Shown piece by piece: positions 43,326-47,654 of a stretch of 64,000 nt of DNA. The stretch is from contig NZ_LXEI01000008.1 of assembly GCF_001642835.1 (NCBI RefSeq), positions 62,001 through 126,000 on the forward strand, read 5' to 3'. The DNA is from Pseudotamlana agarivorans (lineage in GTDB: Bacteria > Bacteroidota > Bacteroidia > Flavobacteriales > Flavobacteriaceae). Both the position numbers and the translations under genes were made by a program. The notes beneath the pieces are model-generated. The model was not told where the DNA came from, ran no database searches, and worked only from the letters and a program-made list of their open reading frames with translations. Position 1 is the first letter of the stretch, and each line of letters begins with the position of its first letter.

Positions 43326-44108
43326 TTAATTCTCTTCTTTCCCAAACAAATATCCATAAGGCATCCCTACAAATAAGGCGCCTCCAACAATATTACCTAA
43401 AGTGGCAGGAATTAAATTTTTAATAAAGAAAGTACTCCAAGTAATATCGGCACCTTCAAAAATAGATAACGGAATAAAGTACATATTGGCAATACTGTGT
43501 TCAAAGCCCATCGTTACAAAGGCCATAACAGGAATCCAAATGGCTACTATTTTTCCAATCGTGTTTTTAGCGGCTATACCTTGCCAAATTGCTAAGCACA
43601 CCAACCAGTTGGCTCCGATCCCTTTTATAAAAGTCACGAGAAACGTATTGCTTGTTTTGCTTTTGGCTATTTTATGAACCATATCAATATACGGTGTATC
43701 TGCTACTAGGTGCGTTAAATAAGTTATGATATAAGCCACAAATAAAGCGCCGACAAAATTTCCTATGTACACTAATCCCCAGTTTCTTAACATGGCGTAT
43801 GCACGCTGTCTTTTGGTTAAAATATTAGGAATGAAATAGGCATTATTTCCTGTAAAAAGTTCGGCGCCAACAATAACCACCAAAATAAGTCCGAGCGGGA
43901 ACGCTGCGCCAAATAAAAATTTCGCAAACCCCGGATTATTAGCTGCTATTCCAGGAGAGCCACCAGATATAATAATGGCTAATAAACCTCCAAAAGCGAC
44001 GTAAGCTCCTGCTAAAAATGCTAGAATTAATGTTTTACTAACTTTATAGCCTTCTTTATTCAAGGCTATTTCATTCACTATTTTTATACCTTCTTTAGGG
44101 GTGTGCAT
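43326..44108 (-). CDS. focA: Formate/nitrite transporter family protein
   Basis: A 260-residue channel with six membrane helices. Family signatures are AAFPLGLILVVIVGAELFTGNN (about residue 68-89), NWGLVYIGNFVGAL and MGFEHSIANMYFIPL near residue 200. The C-terminus GNIVGGALFVGMPYGY is also typical. It is the last gene of pflB-pflA-focA, so formate export (or import) is the probable role rather than nitrite. The gap to pflA is 34 bp. Confidence 0.93.
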   Translation of the reverse strand: MHTPKEGIKIVNEIALNKEGYKVSKTLILAFLAGAYVAFGGLLAIIISGGSPGIAANNPGFAKFLFGAAFPLGLILVVIVGAELFTGNNAYFIPNILTKRQRAYAMLRNWGLVYIGNFVGALFVAYIITYLTHLVADTPYIDMVHKIAKSKTSNTFLVTFIKGIGANWLVCLAIWQGIAAKNTIGKIVAIWIPVMAFVTMGFEHSIANMYFIPLSIFEGADITWSTFFIKNLIPATLGNIVGGALFVGMPYGYLFGKEEN

Positions 44109-44142: not shown

Positions 44143-44895
44143 CTAATTCACCTTAACTTCTTTAAAATATTGATTTAAAATTTCTACAGCAGCATCGATC
44201 TCCTCCTTCGTGTTTTCACGAGCATCTTTCAACTCATACTCCCAACCTAAGGCTTCCCATTTATGGATGCCTAATTTATGATACGGCTGAATTTCTAACT
44301 TTTCAATGGTTTTATAATCCTTGAAATGTTTTCCAAGAGCATGAAGTAATTCGGGTTTGTTAGTAATACCAGGAATTAACACGTATCGCAGCCACATCGC
44401 TTTTCCTGATTCTTCACGATGTTTAGCAAAAGTTAAAGCTGTTTTCATATTACGTTGCCCGGTTAAAGCTTCGTAACCTTCTTCGGTCATGTGTTTAATA
44501 TCTAACATGATTAAATCGGCATAATCGTCTAACAAAGTTTTTGCGAAGTTGTTTAAAAGTCGGCCGTTTGTATCAATATTAGTATGAATCCCCTCTTCTT
44601 TTAATCGCTTGAAAAAAGGAACAAGCGCTTTCGATTGTAATAAAGGTTCGCCCCCTGAAACGGTAACACCTCCTTTTTTTCCGAAGTAAGGCTTCACTTT
44701 TAATACCTTTTCAACCAATTCTTCAATCTCGTATGGTTGACCTCCAGAAGTTTCAATCGTATCTGGATTATGACAATACACACACTTCAATTTACAGCCT
44801 TGTAAAAAAACTACAAAACGAATGCCTGGTCCGTCATGGGTCCCAAAAGATTCAATGGAATGAACATGTAATATATGGTCTTGAGTTTTTGCCAT
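44143..44895 (-). CDS. pflA: Pyruvate formate-lyase activating enzyme
   Basis: A radical SAM enzyme that installs the glycyl radical in PflB. The 250-residue protein has the cluster motif C34-x3-C38-x2-C41 in GCKLKCVYCHNPDT, the SGGEPLLQ motif and DTNGRL. The ATG at 44895 (MAKTQDHILHVHSIES) is preferred over an in-frame TTG at 44910. It lies downstream of pflB with a 97-bp gap that contains a hairpin followed by T-rich sequence, which may lower its expression relative to pflB. Confidence 0.95.
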   Translation of the reverse strand: MAKTQDHILHVHSIESFGTHDGPGIRFVVFLQGCKLKCVYCHNPDTIETSGGQPYEIEELVEKVLKVKPYFGKKGGVTVSGGEPLLQSKALVPFFKRLKEEGIHTNIDTNGRLLNNFAKTLLDDYADLIMLDIKHMTEEGYEALTGQRNMKTALTFAKHREESGKAMWLRYVLIPGITNKPELLHALGKHFKDYKTIEKLEIQPYHKLGIHKWEALGWEYELKDARENTKEEIDAAVEILNQYFKEVKVN

Positions 44896-44992: not shown

Positions 44993-47218
44993 CTACATGG
45001 ATTCGTGGAAAGAACGTGTAATCACTTCTAATTGCTGTTCTCTTGTTAATCTAACAAAGTTCACAGCATATCCAGAAACACGAATGGTTAATTGAGGATA
45101 ATCCTCTGGGCGCTCCATAGCATCCATTAACATTTCTCTGTCTAAAACATTCACATTTAAGTGCTGTGCTTTTCTACTGAAATAGCCATCAATAATAGTT
45201 GCTAAATTGTCGATACGATCTGTTTCAGAAGATCCTAAGGATTTTGGCACCATTGAGAATGTGTTTGAAATACCGTCTAATGAATCTTTATAATCAATTT
45301 TAGAAACTGAATTTAAAGAAGCAATAGCACCGTTACAATCACGACCGTGCATTGGATTTGCTCCAGGAGCAAAAGCGACACCACTTGGTCTACCATCTGG
45401 CGTAGCTCCGGTTTTCTTACCGTAAGACACATTTGATGTGATGGTTAATACAGACATTGTTGGTTCTGCATCTTTATAAACTGGCAATTGTTTTAGCTCG
45501 TTATTAAAATCGGCTACAGCATTAGCAGCTAAGGTATCTACGCGGTCATCATCATTTCCGTATTTTGGAAACTCACCTTCAATTTTAAAATCAACCGTTA
45601 AACCATCTTCATTTCTTATCGGTTTTACTTTCGCATATTTAATAGCTGATAGTGAATCGGCTACAATAGACAATCCTGCAATACCATAGGCAATATTGAT
45701 GCCGGGGTTAGTATCGATTAAAGCCATTTGCGCTTTTTCGTAATAGTACTTATCGTGCATGTAGTGAATAATATTCATAGAATCATTATACACACGAGCC
45801 ACTTCTTTCATAGCGATTTTAAAGTTCGCCATTACAGTATCGAAATCTAAATACTCACCATCCAATTCTTTAATACCATCAACCATAGGTTTTCCAGTAT
45901 TTTCACAACGTCCGCCATTAACAGCTAACAATAATGTTTTAGCTAAGTTGGTACGTGCTCCAAAAAACTGAATAGATTTCCCTAAGCTTTGGTAAGACAC
46001 ACAACATGCAATTCCGTAATCGTCAGATCCACGTTGTGCACGCATTAAATTATCATTTTCAAACTGAATTGAAGAAGTATCAATCGCTACTTTAGCACAA
46101 TAATCTTTAAAATTTTGCGGTAACTCTTGAGACCATAAAATCGTCATATTCGGTTCAGGTGAAGGCCCTAAATTATATAAGGTATTTAAGAAACGGAACG
46201 ATGTTTTAGTTACTTTCGTTCTACCATCTTCAAACATACCACCAATAGCCTCGGTTACCCAAGTAGGATCTCCTGCAAAAATTTCATCGTAAGCCGCCAT
46301 TCTTAAGTGACGTACCATACGTAATTTCATAACGAACTGATCGATGTACTCTTGAGCTTGTTCTTCTGTAATTAAGCCTTCTTTTAAATCATTTTCAATA
46401 TAAATATCTAAGAAGGTAGACACATTACCTAATGACATCGCAGCACCATCTTGCTCTTTTACAGCAGCTAAATAAGCCATGTAAGTCCATTGTACTGCTT
46501 CTTGAGCGTTTTGAGCTGGACGACCTAATTCCAAATCGTATTTAGCACCCAATTCAAGCATATCATTTAATGCTTTTATTTGCGATGACACTTCTTCACG
46601 TAAACGAATAACAGCTTCTGTCATTGGTCCAGTGATGTTGCTTAAGTCTTCTTTTTTAGCTTCAATTAAAGCGTTAATTCCGTAAAGGGCCACACGACGA
46701 TAATCTCCTATAATTCTACCTCTAGCATAATTATCAGGTAATCCAGTTAAAAACCCTAGGGAACGGAATTTTCTAATTTCAGCATTATAAGCATCAAAAA
46801 CACCATCGTTATGGGTTTTAACGTATTTAGAAAATAATTCGGTTAAATTATCATTAGGTTTTACGCCTTGTTCCTGTAAAGCTTTTTGAACCACTTTAAA
46901 ACCTCCAAAAGGTTTCATAGCACGCTTTAATAACTCATCGGTTTGTAAACCAACAATAACTTCATTGTCTTTATCTATATATCCCGCTTCAAAAGCGTTT
47001 ACTGAAGAAATTACTTCTGTATCAACGGCACGTACACCGTTTCTTTGTCTCTCTTCTTGGGTCGCAACTTTACAAACTTCCCATAATTTGTTAGTTTTCT
47101 CGCTTGGTCCAACTAAAAATTCATGAGTTCCATGGTACGGTGTGATGTTTTGAAATACAAAATCTCTAACATTAATGTTCTCCGTCCAAATTCCGTTTTT
47201 AAACTGTTTTACTTCCAT
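44993..47218 (-). CDS. pflB: Formate C-acetyltransferase (pyruvate formate-lyase)
   Basis: Converts pyruvate and CoA to acetyl-CoA and formate with a glycyl radical. The 741-residue protein has the catalytic cysteine pair C405-C406 in [10 protein letters not shown] and the glycyl radical residue G716 in RVSGYAVNF near the C-terminus, corresponding to C418/C419 and G734 in E. coli. It is oxygen-sensitive, so expression should be restricted to anoxia; a CRP/FNR-like palindrome lies upstream. First gene of pflB-pflA-focA. Confidence 0.97.
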
Positions 47219-47268
47219 GTGTTTTATATTAATCTTTTAAATATAATTTCGCATCCATGATGTGTATA

Positions 47269-47276
47269 CAAAGGTA
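47269..47276 (-). promoter_or_regulatory. -7 promoter element of pflB
   Basis: On the minus strand this reads TACCTTTG, matching TAnnTTTG. The expected start is near 47265, giving a leader of about 47 nt. Confidence 0.55.
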
Positions 47277-47295
47277 TAACCTGTTCTCATCTAAT

Positions 47296-47328
47296 AAACT
47301 GACATTTATCAGTTTCCAGTTTAAACTG
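47296..47328. promoter_or_regulatory. CRP/FNR-like operator of pflB with extra half-sites
   Basis: AAACTGACATTTATCAGTTT (47296-47315) is a perfect 7-6-7 inverted repeat of the CRP/FNR kind. CAGTTTAAACTG (47317-47328) follows and adds two more AACTG/CAGTT half-sites. The first site is centred about 40-41 bp upstream of the predicted pflB start, the classical position for activation. The regulator itself is not in the window. Confidence 0.6.
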
Positions 47329-47654
47329 AGGATTTTACCTCTCGAAAACGTTTGAAATTCAATTATTAGACTTTAATTATTTCAATGTTTTCAGTTTTTT
47401 TAAAGAGGAGTTATTTTAATTCCACCATAGACACCAGAAATCTTCAATATTTCAACCTCAACATTAAAAGATTCATAAAAGCTTTATAATTTATCTTTTT
47501 TTATTGTTAGGGTATATTTTGAACATGGAAATGCATTAATCTTATTCTAAGGCTAAAAAATTAACAAATGTTTATCTTATCTTGTAAAGTCTTATTTGAT
47601 AATCTTATTTAATTTCATATTTTGCGCGATACCACACTATACTAGAAACATAAG

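Follow-up and report, generated by a model that had tools for sequence, protein, structure and literature searches.

A putative FNR-type class II operator upstream of pflB in Pseudotamlana agarivorans and the regulon predicted from it

Introduction

The classical position of a class II activator is -41.5, and the FNR and DNR class II sites of proteobacteria are centred there, as is predicted for the site described here. FnrS of E. coli is a small RNA that is activated by FNR, and Cra/FruR provides LacI-family control of glycolysis in the same organism. In Bacteroidota, to our knowledge, promoters do without the usual -10 and -35 elements, and the activation of their transcription is poorly understood.

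Further points of reference come from the accessible parts of three published accounts. The TAnnTTTG promoter box of F. psychrophilum is placed there at -12 to -5 (PMC9723704). The DNR/FNR box is given as TTGATnnnnATCAA and the DNR box as CTTGATnnnnATCAAG, hcp is the central target in published regulons of HcpR, and GTAACnnnnGTTAC is the box assigned to HcpR2 from Bacteroides and others (PMC1274295). FopS, a family with 14 copies in B. thetaiotaomicron, is described in Bacteroidaceae and reportedly prevents the translation of susC close to its start codon; induction by bile salts and a possible, unnamed regulator belong to the same description (PMC11697453). The published work that was searched, where subscription papers are poorly covered and an absence is weak evidence, yielded neither a definition of a flavobacterial FNR regulon nor an FNR-driven small RNA of Bacteroidota nor a gap/pgk/pfl operator.

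The pflB cluster and its promoter

The window, by which we mean the whole 64-kb stretch of P. agarivorans DNA that was analysed, contains pflB, pflA and a gene for a formate/nitrite-family transporter, which together are one fermentation cluster (Table 1). An earlier note on this DNA had proposed a CRP/FNR-type operator at the class II activating position before pflB, with a transcription start near 47265 and with the operator covering the place of the -33 element. All of this agrees with the present analysis. When the pflB box is set at -12 to -5, the predicted start lies within one base of the proposed one and the centre of the TGA-N6-TCA palindrome falls at -41.5, so that the operator overlaps the -33 region. 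The additional half-sites of the earlier note, CAGTTTAAACTG, are indeed present, but they are absent from all five congeneric genomes and were rejected as such.

Table 1. Positions of the features at the pflB locus (window coordinates) and of the small-RNA genes (genome coordinates)
Feature	Position	Strand	Basis or remark
pflB, formate C-acetyltransferase	44993..47218	-	TIGR01255, 1093 bits (cutoff 994)
pflA, pyruvate formate-lyase activating enzyme	44143..44895	-	TIGR02493, 287 bits (cutoff 232)
Formate/nitrite-family transporter	43326..44108	-	TIGR00790, 252 bits (cutoff 232)
Putative FNR-type operator AAACTGACATTTATCAGTTT, upstream of pflB	47296..47315	-	exact match
Operator core TGAY-N4-RTCA	47300-47311; centre 47305/47306 = -41.5	-	sequence
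-7 promoter box TACCTTTG, TAnnTTTG class	47269..47276	-	sequence; consensus and position from the accessible part of PMC9723704
Predicted pflB transcription start	47264	-	from box at -12 to -5; 5'UTR of about 46 nt
Second conserved element TCAAACGTTTTCG, LacI-type-looking	47343..47355	-	centre 43 bp upstream of operator centre
CAGTTTAAACTG, additional half-sites of the earlier note	47317..47328	-	present, not conserved
Small-RNA gene, copy 1	G000:C12:41327-41438	-	FNR-type palindrome at -41.5
Small-RNA gene, copy 2	G000:C12:41619-41730	-	FNR-type palindrome at -41.5
Small-RNA gene, copy 3	G000:C12:43110-43221	-	FNR-type palindrome at -41.5
Small-RNA gene, copy 4	G000:C33:47176-47287	+	FNR-type palindrome at -41.5

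Conservation and spacing of the operator

The pflB site is the sole exact match to AAACTGA-N6-TCAGTTT both in the window and in the 3.83-Mb genome. With up to three mismatches to this pattern, which is that of the earlier note, the window holds 12 matches against 8.5 expected, and 19 of 100 shuffles reach 12. Since enrichment within the window is absent, the case for the operator rests on its conservation and its spacing.

The pflB loci compared are the best 80 of 588 from one scan, with 300 bp upstream examined, and the set of Flavobacteriia (n = 42, window included) was grouped by us from record titles and similarity. The core TGAY-N4-RTCA is found upstream of pflB in 31 of these 42, where shuffling gives a mean of 0.59 and a maximum of 4 in 200 shuffles, and in only three of 39 upstream regions from other Bacteroidota (shuffle mean 0.76, maximum 3). 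The 41 orthologue regions contain 31 palindrome sites, two of them in one region. Where a TAnnTTTG box accompanies the site, its distance from the site centre is 29 bp in 22 of 25 cases and 28 bp in the other three, which are Lutibacter rows; no such box occurs at any other offset between 8 and 80 bp in these regions. Every one of the 11 Flavobacteriia that have no strict palindrome has a homologue of the candidate regulator P0001 described below. One half of the palindrome is visible by eye in six of them (Polaribacter-like, Formosa and Robertkochia) and no half-site in four (two Wenyingzhuangia, Flavicella and one Lutibacter), with L077 left out. Among the congeners, the left half AAACTGA is kept at pflB in five of five and the right half TCAGTTT in three of five.

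Very probably, a gene switch of the oxygen-sensing kind docks at the conserved palindrome ahead of pflB, and both the operator and its class II position are as well supported as sequence allows.

A predicted regulon built on the palindrome and its promoter box

The earlier note had suggested that the half-site AACTGA, as a departure from the FNR half-site of E. coli, could define a regulon. The anaerobic genes are found instead by (A/C)TGAYAWWTRTCA(T/G), and the departure is smaller than claimed, the core TGA-N6-TCA being common to the published DNR/FNR and HcpR boxes. Exact matches to the orthologue-derived motif MTGAYAWWTRTCAK number 16 genome-wide; 15 of them were opened, and the sixteenth is pflB. 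Besides pflB they include pta, ccoN, fnr/ccoI, hemN, hemE, a cytochrome c gene and a napA-like gene (names given by eye, except where family profile matches supply them), and the earlier note's expectation of similar sites before other low-oxygen genes is thereby borne out.

The spacing seen at pflB recurs at these sites. Around the 16 exact palindromes, scanned over 8-80 bp in both directions, TAnnTTTG boxes occur seven times at 29 bp, once at 53 bp and once at 74 bp; the seven belong to pta, a thioredoxin-like gene, the cytochrome c gene, ccoN, hemN, a gene for a secreted protein of unassigned function and pflB. At the same distance of 29 bp, hemE has TAGTTTTA and ccoI has CATTTTTG. Four of the 16 sites head a putative small-RNA gene of about 95 nt, also at -41.5. 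A box in this arrangement is lacking at cytochrome oxidase subunit III (L108), the napA-like gene and the H+-pyrophosphatase gene hppA (L114), and the first and last of these sites are possibly those of a repressor or sites at other positions.

The composite Site-N23-TAnnTTTG has 11 exact matches in the genome, against none for the pattern read backwards, and 33 against 8 with one mismatch. Additional exact places lie at an orf of unassigned function and, by eye, at a porin-like and a transporter-like gene, while one inside a gene (C7:62274) is taken for chance. Over 31 genomes, this one included, 118 + 91 = 209 matches in 26 of the genomes stand against 3 + 1 = 4 for the reversed pattern. Matches in related genomes are not independent. 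The reversed control is a generous one, for it preserves composition but loses the oligonucleotide habit that promoters have; the offset histogram is cleaner as a control.

The bare palindrome with one mismatch has 66 genome matches against 52 in the control, which is barely above it and too weak to call members; it was rejected for this use in favour of exact or box-coupled sites. The pattern AAACTGA-N6-TCAGTTT with up to two mismatches has 62 genome matches against 22, an excess that is real in number. With one mismatch it has seven places, of which four were opened; these lie between amt-type and PII-type genes, at the 3' end of an ORF before a tatA-like gene, inside a gene, and, at C12:10914 (L170), before a gene for a secreted protein of 241 aa. 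The last is 29 bp from a TACCTTTG box and thus shares the operator-box geometry of pflB. None of the four could be tied by eye to a recognisable anaerobic gene, and, judged by these four, the genome scan that the earlier note had proposed with this pattern does not recover the regulon; the pattern was rejected as a regulon motif. One of its two-mismatch copies, G000:C11:198371-198390 (L007), is found about 40-50 bp before the gene of the CRP-family protein P0003.

The notion that the pflB palindrome is a chance AT-rich inverted repeat that no regulator reads could draw on the degenerate pattern, which is not enriched in the window, and on the bare palindrome, which at one mismatch is hardly above control. 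It is strongly disfavoured by the conservation in 31 of 42 sequences, the fixed 29-bp spacing and the composite matches over 31 genomes, and its probability is close to nil. The pflB site appears instead to be part of a regulon of the FNR type, a kind already known in principle and here in a variant fitted to Bacteroidota promoters.

The candidate regulator and its paralogues

The genome has five matches to PF13545 and sixteen to the cNMP-binding domain PF00027. The 225-aa protein P0001, encoded divergently from ccoI with a palindrome in between, has both domains, that is, a cNMP-binding fold and a Crp-type HTH. Its best PDB match is 2gau, a Crp/Fnr-family entry, with 102 bits, followed by FNR-type entries with 76-79 bits and E. 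coli-type CRP with about 50 bits. The recognition helix E-S-x-I-R is kept in 31 of 31 P0001-type sequences, as are cysteines 4, 7, 53 and 106, while C29 and C59 are kept in 28 of 31. When P0001 is compared with the cluster ligand set of FNR, three of the four cysteines align with C4, C7 and C106, and the third N-terminal one aligns with N13. A putative cluster in P0001 might use C53 or C29 as a substitute ligand.

A P0001 homologue is present in all 49 pflB genomes searched (five of the 55 intended loci, and L033, were left out), with best identities of 48-89% in 40 Flavobacteriia and 28-41% in nine Bacteroidales. All nine Bacteroidales have the homologue, while the pflB site occurs in only three of 39 non-Flavobacteriia. 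The best 30 P0001 orthologue loci were opened, and upstream of the gene the palindrome occurs within 330 bp in 22 of them. It precedes the inferred start codon by 40-46 bp in 20 of these 22, and only six of the 22 have a box at 29 bp towards ccoI. The regulator of the pflB operator is likely P0001, although several observations count against this reading: the missing third FNR cysteine, the many cNMP-binding paralogues, the homologues in Flavobacteriia and Bacteroidales that lack the site, the few boxes towards ccoI, the exact sites with no box at 29 bp and the weak result of the bare palindrome with one mismatch.

A second FNR-like protein, P0002 (L006 1000-1749, G000:C7), also has N-terminal cysteines and a recognition helix similar to that of P0001, and its gene lies beside a globin gene and, by eye, an NrfD-like gene. 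The main reader of the site could instead be a nitrogen-oxide sensor of the HcpR or DNR type, from the same superfamily and for example P0002, so that pflB would be under nitrosative and not oxygen control. P0002 has the same domains as P0001 and matches FNR entries, its gene lies about 7 kb away from the napA-like gene, one of those with an exact site, and the HcpR box TTGACnnnnGTCAA, as given in the accessible part of PMC1274295, has the same core. Against this, the sites centre on genes for cbb3 oxidase, haem synthesis and fermentation, and the palindrome precedes P0001 orthologues in 22 of 30 loci; we regard nitrosative control as unlikely.

A cAMP-type CRP or a MalR-like carbon regulator is a far less probable user of the site. 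The CRP-like consensus wTGTGAnnnnnnTCACAw also has the TGA-N6-TCA core, according to the accessible part of PMC1274295, and the part available of a bioreactor study predicted that flavobacterial CRP/FNR homologues are carbon (MalR-like) regulators (PMC8510549). P0001, however, fits FNR better than CRP by the bit scores given above, it has conserved N-terminal cysteines and C106, and the genes next to the sites are low-oxygen genes.

A second element shared with glycolysis genes

The element TCAAACGTTTTCG, which is missing from the earlier note's account of the operator, has three exact copies in the genome, preceding gap (GAPDH), pgk and pflB. With one mismatch it has 12 genome matches against 15 in the control and so is not above it. 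Full TCAAACGTTTTCG is found in five of five congeners, in each at 43 bp from the FNR site, and its core AACGTTTT in 24 of the 42 Flavobacteriia pflB upstream regions. The sequence AAACGTTT, in our view, resembles LacI-type operators.

In the 20 sequences that have both AACGTTTT and the FNR site (window included; second, distant AACGTTTT matches in L051 and L067 dropped), the centre-to-centre distance is 43 bp in one, 44 in two, 52 in one, 53 in two, 54 in ten and 55 in four, and no distance of 45-51 bp occurs. The two classes are one helical turn apart. This suggests that TCAAACGTTTTCG and the FNR site at pflB are in helical phase, with two proteins on one face of the helix.

A predicted multicopy small-RNA gene, probably on the same switch

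The sites C12:41467, 41759, 43250 and C33:47134 each precede a near-identical stretch of about 95 nt with a terminator at its end. Another regulator's operator had been considered for these four sites on account of their GGTTTATGA..TCATAA flank and was rejected, the alignment showing the heads of small-RNA genes (Table 1). A covariance model of the RNA has matches with E of 0.01 or less in 13 of 60 genomes (own included), in a search with stricter filters that lose weak matches. Strong scores are found in all six genomes of the genus, with 4, 2, 2, 3, 6 and 3 copies, 20 in all; a fifth match in the present genome (C6:85718, 32.6 bits) is weak and was left out of the count. Outside the genus, weak matches in G007, G008, G015, G026 (two) and G048, with E from 4e-6 to 0.009, were rejected by eye as unrelated terminators or gene starts. 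G034 (L211, C7) has eight model matches, of which one is the reverse-strand counterpart of another; the 90 bp before them contain no FNR core.

All 20 counted copies, some of which are near-identical duplicates within a genome, have an FNR palindrome, a box with TTTG as its end at 29 bp from it, and an intact seed, GTGGTTCGTTTT(T/A)CATA. The first base of their box is G in ten and C in ten and never the consensus T. The same replacement of T by C or G at -12 of the -7 box is seen at ccoI (L110 1096-1109), and perhaps it marks strictly activator-dependent promoters. The consensus folding has 32 pairs, five of them with two-sided changes; since three of these five lie in the DNA palindrome, the RNA covariation is modest. 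Downstream of one copy there is a Flavo-1 RNA (RF01705; L120 1880-2029, plus strand) with 54.6 bits against a cutoff of 42.

No Rfam family scores over its gathering cutoff at the small RNA. A 201-base stretch of L118 gives SR1 with 30.3 bits (cutoff 45, E 0.00019) and FopS with 23.6 bits (E 0.098), as well as Ref1C, BTnc201 and others; when L116, L118 and L120 are given whole, FopS has an E of 4.4. The score lies below the gathering score of 56 for FopS (RF04319), and membership is not assigned. By eye we prefer the likeness to FopS over the higher-scoring SR1, on account of the phylum and the shared blocks.

The pattern TTTTTCAT-N9..14-GGTTAGTTTA has 27 exact places in 17 of 395 Flavobacteriales, against 6 in the control. 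Four are the copies of the present genome, and nine (G019, G052 and G114) look like small RNAs with terminators, and the 130 bp before each of them lack an FNR core. These nine (L280-L282, L288-L290, L292, L294 and L295) and the G034 matches (L211) are FopS-like candidates of other Flavobacteriales with no FNR site just upstream. Of the remaining 14 places, five, read as genes, are the antisense of leaders of the form TAAACTAACC-N9..14-ATGAAAAA (L270, L272, L274, L277 and L286), and three of the five genes are SusC-like by eye. The small RNA is thus complementary to a leader type of other flavobacteria.

In the present genome, the leader pattern ACTAACC-N6..16-ATGAAAA shows no enrichment, with four matches outside the small RNAs against three in the control. 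A 20-nt seed pattern with up to three mismatches has eight places against one in the control: four are the small RNAs, and the other four, all with three mismatches, were rejected as targets, the two that were opened both being inside genes. The best duplex, at -30.5 kcal/mol, is with C47:57587, which encodes a 202-aa protein, and is a single candidate. The predicted RNA of the multicopy gene may shut off nutrient-receptor genes.

It seems fairly probable that the FNR regulon drives a genus-wide, multicopy FopS-like small RNA from the -41.5 position, so that loss of oxygen would activate fermentation and respiration genes while the small RNA, by pairing with start codons, would repress outer-membrane and SusC-type protein synthesis, with pflB gated in addition by the phase-locked glycolysis operator. 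Bacteroidota would then have a counterpart of the FnrS arm whose RNA scaffold is unrelated. What surprises in the finding is the phase-locked glycolysis element and the multicopy small RNA.

Proposed mechanism

We consider it highly probable that the pflB palindrome serves for class II activation by an FNR-like dimer of the CRP/FNR family, probably one that senses oxygen, with P0001 as the candidate. Binding, activation, oxygen sensing and the choice among paralogues are predicted here from the motif, its conservation and spacing, the neighbouring genes, and the candidate regulator with its cysteines. When oxygen is low, TGAY-N4-RTCA, with its centre at -41.5, would be occupied by the dimer. 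In this position the dimer would reach over the place of the -33 element and bring the primary-sigma polymerase of Bacteroidota to the pflB TAnnTTTG box. The same arrangement would serve pta, ccoN, hemN, hemE, ccoI, the cytochrome c gene and the multicopy small-RNA gene. At pflB, a second factor on TCAAACGTTTTCG, bound to the same face of the helix, would add a glycolysis signal.

A fixed activator position of -41.5 beside TAnnTTTG across the Flavobacteriia would make these promoters a testable model set. For marine flavobacteria, the sites outline a concrete oxygen regulon, linked to a glycolysis element common to gap, pgk and pflB, and they predict a small RNA under oxygen control, akin to those that, according to recent work, control glycan receptors in gut Bacteroides.

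Comparison with known systems

The proteobacterial FNR and DNR class II sites share with the present ones the TGA-N6-TCA core, pfl, cbb3 oxidase and hemN as neighbours, and a site at the regulator gene. Here, however, the base before TGA is mostly A or C and not T, the fourth core base is C or T, the partner promoter is the Bacteroidota TAnnTTTG box and not a -10/-35 pair, and P0001 keeps three of the four cluster cysteines of FNR by alignment. HcpR has a nearly identical core, TGAC-N4-GTCA, but the opened sites of the present regulon are at oxidase, haem and fermentation genes. Cra/FruR of E. coli likewise has one operator sequence at glycolysis genes; in the present case the genes are gap, pgk and pflB, and the operator is a different one, TCAAACGTTTTCG.

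The small-RNA gene resembles that of FnrS in standing behind an FNR-type site, whereas its sequence is unrelated, it is multicopy, and its RNA is a predicted one. With FopS and GibS of Bacteroides it shares multicopy paralogous short RNAs, GUG..UUUUUCAU and GGUUA blocks, a 3' terminator, and a seed complementary to leader or AUG regions, some of SusC type and, for the present RNA, in other flavobacteria. It differs from them in its FopS score of 23.6 bits against a cutoff of 56 and in the FNR-type site that precedes it.
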